From: Brachymonas denitrificans
Lineage (GTDB): Bacteria; Pseudomonadota; Gammaproteobacteria; Burkholderiales; Burkholderiaceae_C
Assembly (NCBI RefSeq): GCF_907163135.1
Contig: NZ_CAJQUA010000001.1
Location: 697,001-761,000, forward strand
DNA: 64,000 nucleotides
Reading direction: 5' to 3'
This document shows positions 3,989 through 37,212 of the stretch, piece after piece (the stretch's first letter is position 1; each line of letters opens with the position of its first letter). The notes under the pieces are model-generated. The model was not told the origin of the DNA. It did no database searches and was given only the letters and a program-made list of their open reading frames with translations. Made by a program: the position numbers and the translations under genes.

Positions 3989-4747
3989 TTACTTCATGCC
4001 CATGCGGATCGCCCCATCCAGACGGATCACCTCACCGTTCAGCAGGTCGTTTTCGAAGATGTGCTTGGCCAGCTTGGCGAAATCTTCGGGACGGCCCAGA
4101 CGGCTGGGGAAGGGCACCATTGCAGCCAGCGAATCCTGCACTTCCTGCGGCATGCCGAACAGCATGGGCGTGCCCATGATGCCCGGAGCGATGGTCATGT
4201 TGCGGATGCCGGTACGGGCCAGATCGCGGGCAATGGGCAGCGTCATGCCCACCACGCCGCCCTTGGAGGCGCTGTAGGCCACCTGGCCGATCTGGCCTTC
4301 GAAGGCGGCCACGGAAGCGGTGGAGATCATCACGCCGCGCTCGCCGGTGGCTTCAGGCTCGTTGGCGCTCATGGCTTCGGCCGCCAGGCGCATCATGTTG
4401 AAGGAGCCGATCAGGTTGACGGTGATGACCTTCTGGAACAGCTCCAGGCTGTGCGGGCCTTTCTTGCCGACGATCTTCTCGGCGGGAGCGATGCCGGCGC
4501 AGTTCACCAGACCCATCAGCTTGCCCAGGCCCGTGGCAGCTTCCACCACCTTGCGGCCATCGGCCTCGTCGGCCACGTTGGCCTTGACGAACACGCCACC
4601 GATTTCCTGCGCCACTTGCTGGCCGCGCTCTTCGTTCATGTCAGCGATGACGACCTTGCCGCCATTGGCTGCCAGCATGCGCGCCGTGCCTTCACCCAGG
4701 CCGGAAGCACCGCCGGTCACGATGAAAGACTTGCCTTGAATCTCCAT
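3989..4747 (-). CDS. 3-hydroxyacyl-CoA dehydrogenase, short-chain dehydrogenase type (HSD17B10 / 2-methyl-3-hydroxybutyryl-CoA dehydrogenase-like)
   Basis: 252 residues, a classical SDR. The NAD-binding TGGASGLG is at residues 11-18, the NCAG motif near 82-85, and the catalytic triad is Ser about 145 with Y158 and K162 (YSASK). Insertions and the C-terminal end ([12 protein letters not shown]) match the bacterial HSD17B10-like group, which oxidises 3-hydroxyacyl-CoA in isoleucine and fatty acid breakdown (called IvdG in some regulon studies). The start at 4747 has AAGGAG 9 bases upstream. An 18-bp palindrome lies 40 bases upstream of the start and suggests control together with acetyl-CoA synthetase, which has the same site. 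Exact substrate is inferred. Confidence 0.88.
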
Positions 4748-4786
4748 GTCGAGCTCCTTATGTCGAATTGAAATGGGGTCGCTGTG

Positions 4787-4804
4787 GTTGACGTTGACGT
4801 CAAC
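4787..4804. promoter_or_regulatory. 18-bp palindromic operator candidate (LiuR-like type), upstream of the hydroxyacyl-CoA dehydrogenase
   Basis: GTTGACGTTGACGTCAAC: arms GTTGACGT / ACGTCAAC around a 2-base centre. A near-identical palindrome occurs at 14814-14831 before acetyl-CoA synthetase. A possible -10 box TACAAT for the minus-strand gene lies at 4815-4820, so the palindrome would sit just after the transcription start, where a repressor could block. From memory, MerR-type LiuR operators of proteobacteria have TTGACGT...ACGTCAA-like arms; that match is not verified here. Confidence 0.6.
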
Positions 4805-5021
4805 GGAATACCGCATTGTAGGGCGAACGCGGGGCCGTACGCGAGAAAAATTCCGGATCCGCACGCGGAGCGGGGCAGGGCTTGCACTGCGGCCGCCGCT
4901 GCTTTCATCCGCGCAGGATCATTGTAGGCGGCACAGGCGGCTGTTTACTTTTGCTTGCACGGTGAATTGCCGGCGGCTTACCATGCCATGTCCGATCCAG
5001 AATCCCTCTGTATTTACCGCC

Positions 5022-5978
5022 ATGTCGCCATCCGAAGTGCCGTCTGCTGATTCCCTGCATCTCCACCTGCAACGCCGCCAGGCCCTGCGTCTGCTGGGAG
5101 GCAGCATGGGCGCGGCGACACTGCTTGGCCTGACGGCTTGCGGCAGCGCGCCGCCGGCACCGAGCCCGCAAAAGCCCGCGGCCCCGCCGGTCGCCCGGCG
5201 CAAGCCGCGTCTGGCGCTGGCCCTGGGGGGCGGCGCGGCACGTGGCTTCGCCCACGTCGGGGCGCTGGAAGTGCTGGAAGAAGCCGGCATCCGGCCCGAC
5301 ATCGTGGTCGGCACCTCGGCGGGCAGCGTGGTCGGCTCCATCTACGCCAGCGGCTTGCGCGGCAGGGCGCTACGCGATGCTGCCCAGGCGCTCGACAAGA
5401 ACGCCATTACCGACTGGCAGGTGCCTTTCCTGAACCGGGGCCTGCTGCGCGGAGCGGCGCTGGAGCGCTTCATCAACCAGCAGGTGGGCAACCGCCCGAT
5501 CCAGGCCATGCCGGTCAAGCTGGGCATCGTGGCGACGGATCTGAAATCGGGGCAGGGCATCCTGTTTCGCAGTGGCAATACCGGGCAGGCGGTGCGCGCA
5601 TCGAGTGCCGTGCCGGGCGTGTTCGAGCCGGTGCGCATCGGCAGCCGCGAATATGTGGATGGCGGTCTGGTGGCGCCGGTGCCGGTCAACTATGCGCGCC
5701 AGCTTGGCGGCGAGGTGGTGGTGGCCATCGACATCAGCAGCGAGCCGACGGCCGAAGCGGCCAGAAGCCAGGCCCAGGTGGTGCTGAAAACCTTCTCCAT
5801 CATGGGGCGCAACATCAATACCAATGAACTGAAAAACGCTGATGTGGTGCTGCGTCCGGCGCTGGCGGGTGTTTCCAGTGCGGATTTCAGCAACCGCGAG
5901 CGCTCGATCGAGGCCGGCCGCGCTGCCATGCGCCAGGCTTTGCCGCGGATCCGCGCCCTGCTTGCGAAAGGGGTGTGA
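5022..5978 (+). CDS. Patatin-like phospholipase family lipoprotein
   Basis: 318 residues from ATG 5022; an in-frame ATG at 4983 would add 13 residues, and neither has a convincing ribosome site. The N-terminus has a twin-arginine-like RRQALRLLGG, a hydrophobic stretch and a lipobox LTAC (Cys40), followed by a Pro/Ala linker, so the enzyme is probably a lipid-anchored envelope protein, possibly exported by Tat. The patatin domain shows the oxyanion-hole GGGAARG (69-75), the nucleophile GTSAG (Ser99) and the catalytic Asp in DGG (about 213), a Ser-Asp dyad. It is homologous to the NTE/RssA-like bacterial group and would hydrolyse phospholipid or lysophospholipid acyl esters; the natural substrate is unknown. 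Confidence 0.85.
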   Translation: MSPSEVPSADSLHLHLQRRQALRLLGGSMGAATLLGLTACGSAPPAPSPQKPAAPPVARRKPRLALALGGGAARGFAHVGALEVLEEAGIRPDIVVGTSAGSVVGSIYASGLRGRALRDAAQALDKNAITDWQVPFLNRGLLRGAALERFINQQVGNRPIQAMPVKLGIVATDLKSGQGILFRSGNTGQAVRASSAVPGVFEPVRIGSREYVDGGLVAPVPVNYARQLGGEVVVAIDISSEPTAEAARSQAQVVLKTFSIMGRNINTNELKNADVVLRPALAGVSSADFSNRERSIEAGRAAMRQALPRIRALLAKGV

Positions 5979-6013
5979 GGCGCATCCCTGTGCTGCCGCC
6001 AGACCTTTGAGAC

Positions 6014-6040
6014 AAAAAAAATGCCCCACCGAGGTGGGGC
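6014..6040 (-). terminator. Rho-independent terminator of the phasin gene
   Basis: On the minus strand GCCCCACC / GGTGGGGC (8 bp, 2-base centre) is followed by ATTTTTTTT. It lies 100 bases after the phasin stop. The plus-strand side lacks a T run, so it serves the minus strand. Confidence 0.85.
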
Positions 6041-6141
6041 AAATTGCATCTGCTAGTCCGGCATTGCACCGGTAACGAGACACAAGGAGACAACTTGTTG
6101 TGCTGGCTGGCATCTGGCCAGCCAGTCTTGCTCAGGGCCTA

Positions 6142-6708
6142 TCAGGCGCGGGGAGCAGCAGGCTTCTTGGCAGCAGCAGCGGCCGTCTTGGTGGCGTTGA
6201 TGGCCGTGTTGGTCATGGCGTTGAAGTTGGCTTCAGCAACGTCGGAAGCTTGTTTCACGGCCTTCTGCACGGATTCGAAAGCAGAGTTGGCAGCGGAAAC
6301 GGCGTTCTTCATCATGGCCACGCCAGCTTCGGAACCAGCAGGAGCGTTCTTGCTCATGTTGTCCACAACGGCGTTCACTTTTTGCTGGGCTTCAACAGCC
6401 TGGGATTCCAGAACCTTGGTGAATTCAGCAGCAGCGCCGGAAGTGATGTCGTACAGATGACGGCTGTAGGCAGCAGTCTTCTCGGCCAGGGGCTGGAACA
6501 GGGAAGCTTGCAGGGCCAGCAGTTCCTGAGCGTCTTTCACGTTCATGGCAGCCTGGGTGGTTTGAGCGGCGTCGGTCAGGGCGGCCTTGGCAGCGTTCAC
6601 GTTCAGGTCGATCAGCTTCTCGACGCTTTCGAAAGCCTTGTTGGTCAGACCAAACAGGGTTTCCAGGTTGGCTTTGTGGGCGGCGGCGATTTGTTCAGCG
6701 GTCAGCAT
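6142..6708 (-). CDS. phaP: Phasin, PHB granule-associated protein
   Basis: 188 residues, Ala-rich, mostly predicted helix, no cysteines and no signal peptide. It starts [21 protein letters not shown], as in the betaproteobacterial phasin family, and ends in an [11 protein letters not shown] tail. Phasins coat polyhydroxybutyrate granules in the cytoplasm, limit coalescence and are among the most abundant proteins in PHB-accumulating cells. GGAGGAA lies 9 bases before the ATG. Codon use is noticeably biased to a narrow set, as expected of strong expression. The promoter region contains repeated TGC-N3-GCA palindromes like one upstream of the PHB depolymerase gene at 62 kb, suggesting shared control by PhaR. 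No phaC synthase is in the window. Confidence 0.93.
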
Positions 6709-6812
6709 GGGAGTTCCTCCAAAAAATTACACTACAGGTGAAAATAACACTGCGCTTGTTGGTGGGGCCTTTCAGCCCCTGTGCCATGCGTCGCAGCCCT
6801 CGCCGGCACTTT

Positions 6813-6882
6813 TGTTGCACTGCAACATGGGCTCTAGTATAAGACCAGTTTGCTGCATTGCAATATCTTTTTGTGCGGCGCA
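6813..6882. promoter_or_regulatory. Cluster of three TGC-N3-GCA palindromes (candidate PhaR operators) in the phaP promoter
   Basis: A perfect palindrome TGTTGCA-C-TGCAACA is at 6813-6827, a half-conserved TGCTGCA-T-TGCAATA at 6851-6865 and TGCGGCGCA at 6874-6882. The first lies about at the predicted transcription start and the second overlaps the predicted -35 box. The PHB regulator PhaR is known to bind TGC/GCA-type inverted repeats before phasin genes (Paracoccus, Ralstonia). The PhaR assignment is inference; the repeats are plain in the sequence. Confidence 0.65.
6836..6863 (-). promoter_or_regulatory. Sigma-70-type promoter of phaP
   Basis: Read on the minus strand: TTGCAA (6863-6858), a 16-base spacer and TATACT (6841-6836). 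Predicted start near 6829, giving a leader of about 120 bases. The rest of the gap to 7085 holds no gene that I can see. Confidence 0.6.
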
Positions 6883-7085
6883 GCAAAAAAGCTGCGGTCA
6901 AATTGCAACAAGTTGTATTGAAGTGGCGGGCGGATGCGGGATGTGCCGCGCCTGCCCGGGCACAGGCTGAAGGAGTGCCATTCCTGAGTGGCTCCAGACG
7001 CTCCGTTATGATCACGCGCAGGCCATGCCTGTGGCTGACCCATATATATAGCGGCGTAATCGCGCCAGCACAAACCTTGTTTCCA

Positions 7086-31868: not shown

Positions 31869-32396
31869 ATGTCCCTCGACAAAGTGACTCCCGGTTCCAA
31901 GCTGCCCGAAGCCTTCAACGTCGTGATCGAGATTCCGGCAGATGCCGCACCGGTCAAGTACGAGGTCGACAAGGAATCCGGCGCCGTGTTCGTGGATCGT
32001 TTCATGACGACCGCCATGCACTATCCGGTCAACTACGGCTACGTGCCGCAAACCCTGTCCGGCGACGGCGACCCGGTCGACGTGCTGGTGATGACCCCGT
32101 TTCCGCTGCAGGCCGGCGTGGTGGTTCCCTGCCGTGCGCTGGGCATCCTGAAGATGGAAGACGAAGCCGGCGTGGACGGCAAGGTGCTGGCCGTGCCCAC
32201 CGCCAAGATCTGCCCGCAGTACAACCACATCAACAAGCTGGAAGACCTGAACCCGCTGACGCTGCAGACCATCAGCCACTTCTTCGAGCACTACAAGGAC
32301 CTGGAAAAGGGCAAGTGGGTCAAGGTGCTGGGCTGGGAAGGCCTGGAAGCCGCCACCAAGGAAGTGACCGACGGCGTGGCCAATTACAAGGGCTGA
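31869..32396 (+). CDS. ppa: Inorganic pyrophosphatase
   Basis: 175 residues, family I soluble type. The signature DGDPVDVLV (metal-binding aspartates) is at about residues 66-74, with [12 protein letters not shown] just before it and the C-terminal [13 protein letters not shown] block. It hydrolyses pyrophosphate and pulls biosynthetic and acyl-CoA ligase reactions forward. Start 31869 (MSLDKVTPG) fits the family; a frame-open start 12 codons upstream does not. A possible -10 box TAAAAT lies about 50 bases upstream. Divergent from prfB. Confidence 0.96.
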
Positions 32397-32418
32397 TCGG
32401 AATCCATTCGATTCTTGC

Positions 32419-32445
32419 CAAGGGCGCCTGCGGGCGCCTTTTTCG
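32419..32445 (+). terminator. Rho-independent terminator of ppa
   Basis: AAGGGCGCC / GGGCGCCTT-type hairpin around a TGC loop followed by TTTTTCG, about 25 bases after the ppa stop. Confidence 0.8.
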
Positions 32446-32648
32446 TACCTGCCTTCCGCTCAACATCCTGCTCCTTTGTGGTGGCGCAAACTCGCGGCGG
32501 ATTTGCATGCTCGTACAGTTTGTTTGTCATGAAACTGAAGGTATGCTGGCACATGTCATCCAAGTGATGCCTGGCGGGTAAGTACACGGCCGCCTTGTCG
32601 TGTCTGCCCCTTCTTTCTCAAGCAGTTGGAGATTTGAAGGAGAGTTTC

Positions 32649-34991
32649 ATGAGACGTTTTGTCCTGGCGGTTTTACCGCTGGCGCTGGGTGGAGCCCTTG
32701 CGGTCGCGCAGGGTGTGGGAACATCGGCCTCCGCACCTGCAGCTTCTGCTCCCGCTCCCGCCGGTGCGGCTTCGGCGGCCGCTGTTGCGGCATCGGTAGC
32801 CAGCGCACCCGCGTCGCTGCCGACCGCAGCCGCTTCGATGGCGGCACAAGCCCCGGCCTCGGCCGCTTCGGCCATGGTGGTCACAGCGCCCACCGTCAAT
32901 GCCGTGGCGCCCACGGTGATCGATGACCTTCCGGCCAATTACGCCGCCAACATGGATCCCGCCACGCGCGCGCAGGTCGAGCGCGGGCGTTATGTGGCGC
33001 GCCTCGGCGATTGCGTGGCCTGCCACACCGCCAAGGGCGGCAAGCCCATGGCAGGCGGTCTGGCGCTCGAAACGCCATTCGGCCAGCTGCACTCCACCAA
33101 CATCACGCCCGATCCCGAAACCGGCATCGGCAAGTACACCTTCGAACAGTTCGACCGCGCCATGCGCAAGGGCGTGGCTGCCGACGGGCACAACCTGTAT
33201 CCGGCTATGCCGTACCCTTCCTATGCCAAGATGACGCAGGACGACATGCAGGATCTGTATGCCTACCTGATGAAGGGCGTGGCACCGGTCCATCAGGCGA
33301 ACGAGCCGCTGGGCCTGGGCTTCCCGTTCAACCAGCGCTGGGGCCTGAAGCTCTGGAACTGGATGTTCCTGGATGACACTCCGTACCAGGCCGATGCCGG
33401 CAAGGACCCGCTCTACCAGCGTGGCGCCTATCTGGTGCAGGGTCTCGGCCACTGCGGCGCCTGCCATACCCCGCGTGGCTGGGGCTTCCAGGAAAAGACC
33501 ATGACCGAAACCAGCCCCAAGGGCGAATACTTCCTCGCCGGCGAGACGGTGGAAGGCTGGCGCGCATTGAGCCTGCGCAACCTGTGGACGGTGGACGAAA
33601 CCGTGAAGATGCTCAAGACCGGCCAAAACAGCTACGGCTCCGTCTCGGGCAACATGGTGGACGTGGTGCAGCACAGCACCCAGTACATGACGGACGAAGA
33701 CCTGCGCGCCATCGGTACCTTCCTGAAGGCGCTGCCGCCCGGCAAGCATGACAAGCCGATGGTGGTGGCTGCTGCCGGCGGCGCTTCCGGCATGGGCGCT
33801 CCGGGCGCATCGGCTCCTGCTGCAGGCGCGTCCACGCCGGCATCGGGCGCTGCTGTTGACACAACAGGCGGCATTCCGGCCTCCATCTACACCACACGCG
33901 GCGGCCTCGGCTACCTGCAGTTCTGCGTGGATTGCCACCGCACCAATGGCAACGGCGTACCGAACGTGTTCCCGCCGCTGACCGGCAACGCTACTCTGCA
34001 GTCGGAAGACCCGTCGACGCTGATTCACATCATGCTGACCGGCTCCAGGTCGGCCCAGACCATGGCACATGCCCGCGTCTGGACCATGCCCGGCTTCGCC
34101 CGCCTGAACGATGAGGAAATCGCGGAAATCCTGAACTTCACCCGCTCCAGCTGGGGCCAGGCATCGAAGGAGATTACCGCCAAGGATGTGGCATCCCTGC
34201 GCAAGAGCCTGGACGTGAAGGTGGACCAGAGCAAGTTCGAGACCCCGCGCCTGGCCGACATGCTGAAGGAAAAGAACGCCGACCAATTGGTGCAGGGCGC
34301 GCGCCTGAACATCCAGACGCATGAACTGCTGCCGAAGAACGTGGGCAACGCGCTCAACTGCACCAGCTGCCACATGAACGCAGGTACGGTGGCCGATGGC
34401 TCTCCGTACGTGGGCGTGTCTGCCTTCTTCCCGAGCTATGGCGCACGTGCCGGCCGGGATATCACGCTGGAAGACCGGATCAACGGCTGCTTCCGCCGCT
34501 CGATGAACGGCAAGCCGCTGCCGCTGCAGTCCGAAGAGATGAAAGCCATGGTGGCCTATTTCGACTGGATGAAGCGCGAAACCAAGCCGGAAGACAAGGT
34601 GGAAGGCCGTGGTGTCGGCAAGATCAGCCGCGACATCAAGCCCAATGTGGACAACGGCAAGCGTATCTATGACAACCAGTGCGCAGCCTGCCACGGAGCC
34701 GATGGCGAAGGCATCAAGGACGCGGCCGGCAAGTGGGTCTACCCGCCGCTGTGGGGCGACATGTCCTTCAACATCGGTGCCGGCATGGCCCGTACCTACA
34801 CGGCTGCCGCCTTCGTGAAGCGCAACATGCCGATCGGTTTCCATGGCAAGTTCCCGCTGGGCCAGGGTGGCCTGACGGACCAGGAAGCCGTGGACGTGGC
34901 CGAATACTTCAGCCACATGCCGCGCCCGGACTTCCCGGACAAGGTGAAGGACTGGCCGAAGGGCGGCAAGCCGGCTGACGCACGCTACTGA
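32649..34991 (+). CDS. Five-haem c-type cytochrome: fusion of a trihaem alcohol-dehydrogenase-type cytochrome subunit and a TsdA/SoxA-like dihaem module
   Basis: 780 residues with a signal peptide (about 1-21) and an Ala/Ser/Pro-rich linker (22-90). Five CxxCH sites: CVACH 122-126, CGACH 269-273, CVDCH 426-430, CTSCH 571-575 and CAACH 678-682. Residues 110-500 resemble the triheme cytochrome subunit of membrane alcohol/gluconate dehydrogenases (TNITPDPETGIGKYT, PYPSYAKMTQDD, GYLVQGLGHCGACHTPRG-type blocks). Residues 545-760 resemble thiosulfate dehydrogenase TsdA/SoxA, including LEDRINGCF with Cys614, 39 residues after the haem-4 His, a candidate for the Cys axial ligand known in TsdA. AAGGAG lies 7 bases before ATG 32649. 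Monocistronic, with no dehydrogenase catalytic subunit adjacent. Electron donor unknown; a periplasmic electron relay or a thiosulfate/tetrathionate enzyme is possible. Confidence 0.85.
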   Translation: MRRFVLAVLPLALGGALAVAQGVGTSASAPAASAPAPAGAASAAAVAASVASAPASLPTAAASMAAQAPASAASAMVVTAPTVNAVAPTVIDDLPANYAANMDPATRAQVERGRYVARLGDCVACHTAKGGKPMAGGLALETPFGQLHSTNITPDPETGIGKYTFEQFDRAMRKGVAADGHNLYPAMPYPSYAKMTQDDMQDLYAYLMKGVAPVHQANEPLGLGFPFNQRWGLKLWNWMFLDDTPYQADAGKDPLYQRGAYLVQGLGHCGACHTPRGWGFQEKTMTETSPKGEYFLAGETVEGWRALSLRNLWTVDETVKMLKTGQNSYGSVSGNMVDVVQHSTQYMTDEDLRAIGTFLKALPPGKHDKPMVVAAAGGASGMGAPGASAPAAGASTPASGAAVDTTGGIPASIYTTRGGLGYLQFCVDCHRTNGNGVPNVFPPLTGNATLQSEDPSTLIHIMLTGSRSAQTMAHARVWTMPGFARLNDEEIAEILNFTRSSWGQASKEITAKDVASLRKSLDVKVDQSKFETPRLADMLKEKNADQLVQGARLNIQTHELLPKNVGNALNCTSCHMNAGTVADGSPYVGVSAFFPSYGARAGRDITLEDRINGCFRRSMNGKPLPLQSEEMKAMVAYFDWMKRETKPEDKVEGRGVGKISRDIKPNVDNGKRIYDNQCAACHGADGEGIKDAAGKWVYPPLWGDMSFNIGAGMARTYTAAAFVKRNMPIGFHGKFPLGQGGLTDQEAVDVAEYFSHMPRPDFPDKVKDWPKGGKPADARY

Positions 34992-35081
34992 GTGTGTTCT
35001 CCGGACGGGTGGCAGTCTTGCGTGACTTGCCACCTGGGCCAACACACAAGTCCCCTGCCAGCCGGTTTCCGGCGCGCATTG

Positions 35082-35117
35082 GCACCCCATGAGACAGGTT
35101 TTCATGGGGTGCTTTTT
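35082..35117 (+). terminator. Rho-independent terminator of the five-haem cytochrome gene
   Basis: GCACCCCATGA / TCATGGGGTGC (11-bp stem, 9-base loop) followed by TTTTT, about 90 bases after the stop. Confidence 0.88.
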
Positions 35118-35145
35118 CGTGCGCGTAGGGATGCGGTCTCCCGAC

Positions 35146-37212
35146 TTACTTGCTCAGGTCGATGCTGTACAGCGACATGTTCTTGCCCGAACCATCGTCC
35201 TGTTGCTCGAGCATGATGTTGTTCAGGCCCGCATCCACTGCCAGTTGCAGCTTGTCCTGGCCGGAGCTGAATACCACCTTGCCGGCAATCGCCACCGGCT
35301 TGAAGCGCCAGCTGCGGGCGCTGCCATTGGCGGCGCGCGTCATGCTCTGCACCTGCTTGATGTACTGGATCAGCACATCGCGGTTGGCATCGGGAGATGC
35401 ATAGATGGTCGAGCGGCCATCCAGGGCGGCGATGAAGGTCTTGCCGCTGGTGGCGCGGTAGTTGTTGGTCGCAATGATGAAGCTGGCTGCCGGGTCGATC
35501 GGGGCACCCTTGTATTGCAGGTCGACGATGCGCTGGCCGACCGGCTGCGTCACATCGACCATATAGCTCACGTCCGGCGTGGTGAACATGTCGTGGTTGT
35601 AGCCGGGGAAGGTGCTGATCAGCTTCTGCTGCGTGGCCACGGCAGGGTCGATCCGGTTGAAGCGCTTGGCAGCGCCTTCCAGCCAGCCCTTGATCTCGCT
35701 GCCGGTCACCTTCACGGCATAGACCGTGTTGGGGTACAGGTAGAGGTCAGCCGCGTTGTAGATGGCGATCGGGCCGGCTGCCACATCGGTAAAGTCGGCG
35801 CCACCGCCATAGCCGGACTTGAAGGGCGCGCTCACCGACAGCACCGGCAGATCCTTGTATTGCGGCAGGTTGGCTTGTACGTAGCGGGCCACGTAGTCCT
35901 GCTGTGCCTGGCTCACGATCTGGATGGCGGTCGGGTCTCCCACGTCGGCGAAGTAGGTGCTCATGCGGAAGTCGGAGCTGCCGATGGGTGTTTTCACGTA
36001 GGTGATGGTGGCCTGATGCTGCGCTTCCACCAGTTCGGCTACCTTCGGATCGGGAGCCACATAGGCGGTGGCCTTGCCTTTGGCATCGCGCTCGGTCACG
36101 GTCTCGCGCGCCTCGACCAGCGTCTTGCTCTTGTCGATCACCCAGGCCTTGGCCTTGGCATCGCGCACCAGTTCGAGCTTGATCACGCCCAGTGCCTTGC
36201 CCCAGAAGCTGGGCATGGTAGCCGGCACGCCATGGATGGTGCCGGCGGCGTTGTCCACGCCTTCCATGGTGTAGGCGGGGTTGGCGCCGCGATCGGGGAA
36301 CAGGCTGTGCGAGTGGCCCATGAACATGGCATCGATGCCGGGCACCTTGGAAAGATGCAGCGCCGGGTTTTCCATCGTGGCAGAGTAGGGGACACTGCTC
36401 AGGCCGCCGTGCACCAGTGCCACCACCACGTCGGCGCCTTTCTGCCGCATTTCGGGCAGGTATTTCTGCGCCGTTTCTACGGCACCGTCGATGCGCAGTT
36501 TGCCTTCCACAAAGCGCTTGTCCCAGTTCATGATGCCGGGCGTGGTGAAGCCGATCACGCCGACCTTGACCGGCACTTTCACGGTCTTGCCATCGGGCGT
36601 GGTGGCGGTGAATTCGCGCTGCAGGATGGTGTAGGGCTGCACCAGCGGCTGGCCTGTCTTCAGGCTGTACACATTGGCCAGCACCATGGGAAACTCGGGG
36701 CCCTTGCACTTCTGGCCGGGGTCGACGCCGCCCACGTTCAGGCCGCCGCCCAGCACCTGGCTCAGGAACGGCAGGCCGTAGTTGAACTCATGGTTGCCCA
36801 GCGTGCCCACGTCGTACTTGTAATGGTTCATGACCCTGTACATCGACAGGGTCTGCTCGCAGCTGACGGGGTTGACCGTGGCCTCGTAGTCGGCCAATGC
36901 CGTGCCCTGGATGGTGTCGCCATTGTCCAGCAGCACGTTGTTGGCAAATTCGCTGCGCGCCTGCTGGATCAGCGTGGCGGTTCGCTCGAAACCGTAGCTC
37001 TGGTCTTCGGCGAGTTTGAAATAGTCGTAGCTGCGGATGTTGCTGTGCAGGTCGCTGGTTTCCAGCAGCGCTACCGTGGCACGCGTGCCATCGGCGATCT
37101 GCGGTGCCGGAACAGGTTTCTCGGAGGTGTTGCTGTCGCCACCGCAGGCTGCCAGTACGGCAGCAGTGGCGAGGGGCAGGACCCAGCGGAACAGGGAATG
37201 GGGCAGGGGCAT
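35146..37212 (-). CDS. cpdB: 2',3'-cyclic-nucleotide 2'-phosphodiesterase/3'-nucleotidase-like lipoprotein (5'-nucleotidase family)
   Basis: 688 residues. A lipoprotein signal ends in lipobox LAAC, so the enzyme is anchored at the envelope rather than free periplasmic as in E. coli. The calcineurin-like metallophosphatase domain shows TSDLHSNI, DNGDTIQG, GNHEFNYG, HGGLS and GHSHSLFP; the C-terminal 5'-nucleotidase domain follows, with GYGGGADFTDVAAGPI as substrate loop. It degrades extracellular nucleotides for phosphate and nucleoside uptake. Start 37212 has GGAG 7 bases upstream. CpdB versus UshA-like specificity is not certain, but the length and TSDLHSN-type start favour CpdB. Confidence 0.85.
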   Translation of the reverse strand: MPLPHSLFRWVLPLATAAVLAACGGDSNTSEKPVPAPQIADGTRATVALLETSDLHSNIRSYDYFKLAEDQSYGFERTATLIQQARSEFANNVLLDNGDTIQGTALADYEATVNPVSCEQTLSMYRVMNHYKYDVGTLGNHEFNYGLPFLSQVLGGGLNVGGVDPGQKCKGPEFPMVLANVYSLKTGQPLVQPYTILQREFTATTPDGKTVKVPVKVGVIGFTTPGIMNWDKRFVEGKLRIDGAVETAQKYLPEMRQKGADVVVALVHGGLSSVPYSATMENPALHLSKVPGIDAMFMGHSHSLFPDRGANPAYTMEGVDNAAGTIHGVPATMPSFWGKALGVIKLELVRDAKAKAWVIDKSKTLVEARETVTERDAKGKATAYVAPDPKVAELVEAQHQATITYVKTPIGSSDFRMSTYFADVGDPTAIQIVSQAQQDYVARYVQANLPQYKDLPVLSVSAPFKSGYGGGADFTDVAAGPIAIYNAADLYLYPNTVYAVKVTGSEIKGWLEGAAKRFNRIDPAVATQQKLISTFPGYNHDMFTTPDVSYMVDVTQPVGQRIVDLQYKGAPIDPAASFIIATNNYRATSGKTFIAALDGRSTIYASPDANRDVLIQYIKQVQSMTRAANGSARSWRFKPVAIAGKVVFSSGQDKLQLAVDAGLNNIMLEQQDDGSGKNMSLYSIDLSK

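Follow-up and report, generated by a model that had tools for sequence, protein, structure and literature searches.

A five-haem cytochrome c gene was analyzed in a stretch of 64,000 nucleotides from Brachymonas denitrificans (contig NZ_CAJQUA010000001.1, positions 697,001 to 761,000), hereafter called the window. Its product joins, in one chain of 780 residues, a trihaem part of the AdhB type, as in the cytochrome subunits of alcohol dehydrogenase (ADH) and the sugar dehydrogenases GDH and FDH, to a C-terminal dihaem part resembling thiosulfate dehydrogenase TsdA. The reading preferred here, with a probability of about 0.68, is that of an exported thiosulfate/tetrathionate enzyme that would be wired through its trihaem part, with thiosulfate oxidation as the most likely net use.

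The preliminary description of this DNA, made from the letters alone, had recognized a single chain with five CxxCH sites in two modules, which holds: the frame is intact, and with phmmer against solved structures, the modules also being searched apart, each of the two matched the expected family. The trihaem part matched 8gy2_B (E 2.6e-96, residues 99-368 and 418-519), followed by 8hdd_B (1.7e-94) and 7w2j_C (8e-70), and residues 544-768 matched TsdA (4wqc_A, E 1.3e-51) and also the TsdBA fusion 5lo9_A (2.5e-32). On this sequence comparison, both module matches are far beyond chance. The Pfam families Cytochrom_C and SoxA-TsdA_cyt-c were found over their cut-offs, and no NCBIfam model passed its cut-off for the fusion protein. 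The C-terminal module had been called TsdA/SoxA-like; the TsdA half of this name is upheld by the 4wqc_A match and the active-site residues, the SoxA half is not, the SoxA model TIGR04484 giving 41.2 bits against a cut-off of 110, and the module is thus best assigned to TsdA rather than SoxA. The N-terminal module has the three CxxCH motifs and the overall match expected of the ADH, GDH and FDH cytochrome subunits; a dehydrogenase gene alongside is absent from the window locus.

Relatives of the fusion were sought in one genome per species, and of the 176 found the best 80 were kept, so that counts on 80 loci speak of the closest relatives. All 80 encode a single frame with five CxxCH motifs and share 63 to 92% of their residues with the window protein across the conserved part, with a spacing of 107 residues between haems 4 and 5 in every case and of 144-149 between haems 3 and 4. 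The hosts belong to the Alpha-, Beta- and Gammaproteobacteria and include Brachymonas, Cupriavidus, Delftia, Ralstonia, Massilia, Zoogloea, Azospira, Thauera, Rhodoferax, Methylobacter, Xanthobacter, Rhodopseudomonas and others, as well as many Pseudomonas species, among them P. aeruginosa PA7. The fusion is not singular but forms one clade in many Pseudomonadota, and a fusion of TsdA with an acceptor was already known in Marichromatium purpuratum TsdBA. The fused form is distributed patchily. Among 398 genomes sampled evenly across the phylum, 11 had a TsdA match at E <=1e-45, five of them fused, the window's own genome included, and four split. Among 120 genomes of the family, eight had a match at <=1e-10 and two were fused by frame length, both of the window's own genus, and among 369 genomes of the class, 39 had a match at <=1e-25 and only the window's own genome was fused by frame length.

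The residues expected of a TsdA active site are retained. R600, R610, C614, S618, R715 and M727 are invariant in 81/81 fused sequences, and the same holds for the triplet H575, C614 and H682. By alignment, the first six correspond to R82, R92, C96, S100, R197 and M209 of Allochromatium vinosum TsdA (AvTsdA), and R600, R610, C614, S618 and R715 to R109, R119, C123, S127 and R224 of its precursor; we take the ligand Cys to be residue 96, which fits the K208 variant titles of the structures. The placing of Cys614 given earlier, 39 residues past the CTSCH His (H575) compared with 43 in Allochromatium, was accurate: the distance from H53 to C96 is 43, and the difference arises from a 4-residue insertion in AvTsdA. 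The assignment of C614 as a haem ligand is likely, on its alignment to crystallised AvTsdA, and M727 is likely the ligand of the last haem. In the trihaem part, M187, M336 and M480 are invariant, one per haem, in motifs common with 8gy2_B, and are likely the sixth ligands. TsdA chemistry runs via a cysteine-thiosulfonate on the haem-ligating Cys, whose reactivity (Cys123) is affected by Arg109, Arg119 and Ser127, Arg224 being a further candidate that is only partly conserved among TsdA proteins (PMC4423706).

The halves occur as separate adjoining genes in five genomes from three genera (G009; G555; G398, G771 and G860), the trihaem gene first and the TsdA gene second, spaced by +4, -8, -4, -4 and -4 nt, respectively (start codons by eye). 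Phylogeny was inferred from 79 TsdA parts, of which 37 were fused (34 of the 81, at <85% identity, plus L149-L151); L123, L124, L130, L131, L136, L137, L139 and L140, missed by the motif search, stayed outside the tree. TsdB-linked here denotes a second frame of at least 180 amino acids (aa) that carries two CxxCH and lies within the fetched stretch, with flanks of about 1.5 kb. The fused rows grouped together (support 95/87), as did the five split rows (100/99), and the two groups joined in a common clade (100/93), outside which fell the 20 TsdB-operon rows with M. purpuratum TsdBA and all 15 rows labelled stand-alone, including L002 of the window's own genome. At AvTsdA position 82, Arg was present in 37/37 fused and 5/5 split rows and in AvTsdA, Lys in 20/20 TsdB-linked rows, and Arg in eight and Lys in seven of the other 15 rows. 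The trihaem tree, with 17 of the 37 fused rows and 12 outgroup rows (L159, L166 and L167 left out), replaced an earlier one with two outgroup rows, in which 8gy2_B had stood beside the fused rows (88/89). It recovered the fused rows as one clade (100/99) and fused rows, split rows and 8gy2_B as another (97/95), and a single clade of fused and split rows was neither shown nor rejected (p-AU 0.565). By these trees, a single fusion event is well supported, and in the simplest history an AdhB-type subunit would have paired with TsdA once and the two would then have fused once.

Further relatives were noted in the course of these comparisons. L121 (G161, minus strand, 1321-2892), labelled "alone", is a single frame of 523 aa and four CxxCH; its TsdA part branches beside the TsdB-linked clade, and it is probably another TsdBA-type fusion. 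L157 (G555) is a TsdA relative, lipoprotein-like by eye, found besides the split pair of that genome on a long branch near AvTsdA. The AdhB-like frames L160, L162 and L164, of 512-611 aa with four haem-type motifs, are another extended form of the trihaem subunit; L159, L166 and L167 are likely the same.

No operon partner conserved across the family was found, the neighbours being shared at the level of lineages only. The thiosulfate/tetrathionate link that had been proposed gained from genes like those of the ttr system, which stand beside 13/80 homologues in all, and from a ttr-like cluster in the window's own genome. A pair of a TtrS-like sensor kinase and a FixJ/TtrR-type regulator was present in the fetched stretch of 12/80 fused loci (L014, L015, L016, L018, L020, L021, L022, L024, L025, L026, L027 and L039), and in 9/80 it preceded the fusion gene in the same orientation, with 221-517 nt between the end of the regulator match and the first haem codon. 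The L026 kinase carries a phosphonate-binding-type domain, and its best NCBIfam match is TtrS (5.8e-91, 306 bits against a cut-off of 750). In L029 (Rhodoferax), ttrA-, ttrC- and ttrB-like genes adjoin the fusion, and L027 has a partial TtrA at the edge of its stretch besides the regulatory pair. The own-genome cluster, with the complete set of ttrS-, ttrR-, ttrB-, ttrC- and ttrA-like genes together, is far from the window; its kinase and that of L026 are 47% identical, its TtrA and that of L029 67%. In Vibrio parahaemolyticus, tetrathionate is sensed by TtrRS, which switches on ttrBCA as well as tsdBA, and the TsdBA enzyme is a thiosulfate oxidiser (PMC11293645). The ttr context ties some members of the family to thiosulfate/tetrathionate on grounds other than their active-site residues. 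Full Sox thiosulfate oxidation was discarded for the window's own genome, where no SoxB passed its cut-off (SoxB was the only Sox component asked). Other neighbours shared within lineages were an ArsR-rhodanese regulator upstream in 6/80, all related Pseudomonas (L041, L045, L057, L059, L060 and L062), a TauE-like gene in 3/80 and a DsbA-like gene in 5/80, one member of each group being named by Pfam. The ArsR-rhodanese protein is a possible sulfur-responsive regulator of the fusion gene in those Pseudomonas.

From these data we infer the chemistry, electron path, direction and partner of the fusion protein as follows. The TsdA part would interconvert thiosulfate and tetrathionate at its His/Cys haem (H575/C614) by the cysteine-thiosulfonate route of TsdA, and the second TsdA haem (H682/M727) would give electrons to, or take them from, the fused trihaem part, which, in the role of TsdB, would connect to the respiratory chain. 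Most likely, the net reaction would be thiosulfate to tetrathionate, with electrons passing to a high-potential c-type carrier or oxidase; the earlier proposal, transfer to a terminal oxidase with no separate carrier, is hypothetical. The gene may in some hosts form part of a tetrathionate-sensing TtrSR regulon, as does V. parahaemolyticus TsdBA. The tetrathionate/thiosulfate potential is +198 mV (PMC5146829), and thiosulfate electrons should therefore go to a high-potential cytochrome or oxidase. Two points make oxidation somewhat likelier than reduction: the TsdBA circuit of Vibrio works oxidatively, and the window form lacks hydrophobic stretches other than its signal peptide.

Several observations weigh against this reading. 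To our knowledge, no activity, spectrum or sulfur phenotype of the fusion protein is known. AdhB-type subunits are quinone reducers, and a quinone link would, on potentials, fit thiosulfate oxidation poorly. The AlphaFold2 model, built from 34 sequences, is weak (mean predicted local distance difference test 65.8, predicted template modeling score 0.50, no haem). Foldseek did find the anticipated likenesses in it, with ADH subunit II first (8gy2_B, E 2.3e-24), cytochrome subunits of FDH and aldehyde dehydrogenase next, and then TsdA (4wq8, 3.3e-11) and TsdBA (5lo9_A, 3.2e-10); the contact of C614 with iron lies beyond such a model, and with a root mean square deviation from 8gy2_B of 17.6 across the entire trihaem match, the placing of domains is not readable from it. 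In the trihaem tree, 8gy2_B grouped with the split rows (93/82), and a single pairing of the trihaem part with TsdA therefore does not follow from it. All matches to TtrS, TtrR, TtrA, TtrB and TtrC were under the curated NCBIfam cut-offs, FixJ scored above TtrR for all five regulators of this type scanned, TtrR ranking second in four of them, and for the TtrB-like proteins DsrO was the only model over its cut-off. No ttr gene stands beside the window fusion gene or beside 67/80 loci, a pair of the OmpR type takes its place near L010 and L033, and most of the ttr-linked loci come from Rhodocyclales and their relatives, and hence are not independent. The window's own genome also already has a second TsdA, L002.

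The same family assignment allows the opposite direction, a quinol-fed tetrathionate reductase, in which the trihaem part would take electrons from ubiquinol, the TsdA part would reduce tetrathionate, and induction by TtrSR would reflect tetrathionate being the enzyme's substrate. We regard this variant as less likely than oxidation. Should the trihaem part exchange electrons with ubiquinone as in ADH, passing them from quinol to tetrathionate at +198 mV would be downhill, and no ttrA match was found in the fetched stretches of the nine loci with the regulatory pair upstream (L022, L024 and L026 shortened by contig ends). The fused forms also share, in 81/81 cases, an Asn (N726) preceding the Met of the last haem, which is also found in the TsdA of Campylobacter jejuni, the reductase CjTsdA (PMC5146829). 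This Asn is, however, mute on direction, since it also occurs in M. purpuratum TsdBA (MpTsdBA), which is biased to oxidation (PMC5146829), and in 19/20 TsdB-linked and 14/15 other TsdA rows. Against a quinol-fed enzyme stands that the strongest hydrophobic stretch of the window form is its signal peptide, and in Vibrio the TsdBA under TtrRS control is oxidative (PMC11293645). N-terminal hydrophobic stretches were seen by eye in the split trihaem subunits of G009, G398, G771 and G860 and in some fused proteins. A wider claim, which we consider doubtful, would make the clade a third class of TsdA whose trihaem part ties thiosulfate/tetrathionate chemistry directly to the quinone pool, as a quinol:tetrathionate reductase or a reversible thiosulfate:quinone enzyme, without the molybdenum enzyme TtrBCA or a soluble cytochrome, in many ordinary heterotrophs such as Pseudomonas.

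It is improbable that the TsdA part now serves as an electron carrier, or has a different sulfur compound as its substrate, in the manner of CccC of C. jejuni; some hosts are not known as thiosulfate oxidisers, and all seven fusion-bearing genomes searched at E 0.001 have a second TsdA-like gene (four further fused genomes gave one match each at the stricter 1e-45). CccC is a TsdA relative that donates electrons to the cb oxidase, and in proteins of its type Met replaces the Cys ligand and Ala precedes the haem-2 Met (PMC5146829). The fused forms keep Cys and Asn in 81/81, together with the other four active-site positions, and membership in the CccC type was rejected as none has Met in place of C614. 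The nearness of the trihaem part to ADH subunit II (8gy2_B), by sequence and tree, would suit a protein that still docks an alcohol or sugar dehydrogenase encoded elsewhere and uses the TsdA part as an added electron outlet; this is very unlikely. The preliminary description had noted no flavin- or pyrroloquinoline quinone (PQQ)-dependent dehydrogenase beside the gene, and by Pfam no dehydrogenase is present among its six window neighbours. Nor was a PQQ or GMC dehydrogenase found among the 25 commonest of 119 Pfam families in the neighbour open reading frames (ORFs) of 33 diverse loci, a survey in which 119 of 125 ORFs were scanned, those >900 aa being dropped, and in which some ORFs are not real genes. 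Split versions in relatives could, finally, suggest a frame error or a chimeric assembly joining two neighbouring genes, which the earlier account had itself named as a way to be wrong. The probability of this is practically nil, as the single frame in 80/80 kept loci rules it out and the spacings from haem 3 to haem 4 and from haem 4 to haem 5 are steady.

The features of the gene and its surroundings are collected in Table 1. The ORF list also allows a longer frame, starting with TTG at 32595. The fusion protein is predicted to be exported: its most hydrophobic 19-residue stretch begins at residue 5, and no other stretch is stronger than this signal peptide. An N-terminal linker of similar kind was seen only in L003 (B. 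denitrificans) among ten homologous N-termini compared. A second linker of the window protein, rich in Ala, Ser, Pro and Gly, lies at 33768-33857, and haems 2 and 3 are 157 residues apart, compared with a median of 129 in the 80 homologues. That the gene is solitary with its own terminator, as had been stated, agrees with the hairpins that bound it on both sides. The fold energy of the downstream hairpin, which precedes a convergent 5'-nucleotidase-type gene, was reached by 0/200 shuffles, and that of the upstream hairpin, in which the pyrophosphatase gene ends, by 7/200; the terminator pattern scan alone was at chance level (2 found, 2.0 expected). The six neighbours were assigned by Pfam to an M1 peptidase, a release factor, the pyrophosphatase, the 5'-nucleotidase type, L19 and NUDIX. 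No sigma-70 promoter was found in a scan of 32380-35160, and PHROGs gave no match.

Table 1. Features of the fusion gene, its flanks and related loci of the same genome. Positions are those of the window unless a locus or genome label is given; CxxCH sites are numbered by their first residue in the 780-aa protein; dG, folding free energy.
Feature	Position	Strand	Basis
Five-haem fusion gene, 780 aa	32649..34991	+	intact ATG-started frame; 5 CxxCH
Signal-peptide-like hydrophobic start, residues 1 to ~22	32649..32714	+	hydrophobicity; cleavage site by eye
Ala/Ser/Pro-rich low-complexity linker, residues ~23-88	32715..32912	+	by eye
Trihaem module, ADH/GDH/FDH cytochrome-subunit type, residues 99-520	32943..34208	+	phmmer; CxxCH 122, 269, 426
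TsdA module, residues 544-768	34278..34952	+	phmmer, alignment; CxxCH 571, 678
Cys614 codon, aligned with AvTsdA Cys96 (Cys123 of precursor)	34488..34490	+	alignment; Cys in 81/81
Hairpin and T run 3' of pyrophosphatase gene, between pyrophosphatase and fusion genes	32420..32441	+	dG -17.3, z -2.07
Intrinsic-terminator-like hairpin 3' of fusion gene, 14 pairs and T tail	35081..35113	+	dG -27.7, z -6.00
ttrSR-ttrBCA-like cluster of own genome	L145:4705-12378; G000:C1, about 1,620,700-1,628,400		matches under NCBIfam cut-offs
Second, stand-alone TsdA of own genome, L002	G000:C1:1965019-1965699		lipoprotein-like start by eye

Known TsdA enzymes stand alone, work together with TsdB or are fused to it. 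The fusion resembles MpTsdBA (5LO9) in that TsdA is fused C-terminally to a multihaem c-type acceptor and the haem-ligating Cys is kept. It differs in the acceptor, which in MpTsdBA is the dihaem TsdB (four haems in total) and here is trihaem and of the AdhB type, and in its place in the TsdA tree, MpTsdBA belonging to the TsdB-linked clade and the fused rows to the trihaem-linked one. With AvTsdA (4WQ7 and 4V2K) and CjTsdA, it shares the dihaem module, the Cys ligand and the Arg/Arg/Ser/Arg set, 96 of 216 aligned residues being identical to AvTsdA; both of these are stand-alone enzymes, unlike the fused chain, and Lys208 of AvTsdA is replaced by Asn (N726) in all fused forms. The trihaem module shares the TNITPD block and the Met-bearing motifs with the AdhB-type subunits of ADH, GDH and FDH (8GY2, 8HDD and 7W2J), which work with a PQQ or flavin adenine dinucleotide subunit, whereas here the partner is TsdA, placed in the same chain after the third haem domain. 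The ttrRS-ttrBCA-tsdBA system of V. parahaemolyticus likewise combines a tetrathionate two-component system with a TsdA enzyme (PMC11293645); its acceptor is TsdB, here it is the AdhB-type trihaem part, and the ttr-like cluster of the own genome lies elsewhere. A published FDH model took TsdBA (5LO9) as template for its trihaem subunit (PMC5937911), so that the likeness of the two acceptor kinds has been used before. A description of TsdA joined to an AdhB-type trihaem part was not found among the titles, openings of abstracts and passages covered by a literature search from which most subscription journals are missing. The trihaem-linked TsdA is best regarded as a TsdA system with a new architecture.

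The clade shows another electron partner of TsdA, a cytochrome like those of alcohol dehydrogenases, encoded either in a two-gene unit with TsdA or in a single chain with it, and points to an undescribed wiring of thiosulfate/tetrathionate chemistry to respiration. In P. aeruginosa PA7 (L069), the fusion frame lies at 4608-6956, near ispB-like and L27-like genes (named by eye). Judged from these neighbours, the P. aeruginosa counterpart is presumably PA4571, annotated only as "probable cytochrome c". In a sigX expression table, PA4571 appears with a value of 4.1 alongside cbb3 and denitrification genes (PMC3832394), and a PA4571 mutant is reported to have given no plaques with the double-stranded RNA phage phiYY (PMC7452160). 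Once a sulfur function is defined, these sigX and phiYY observations could be put to the test.

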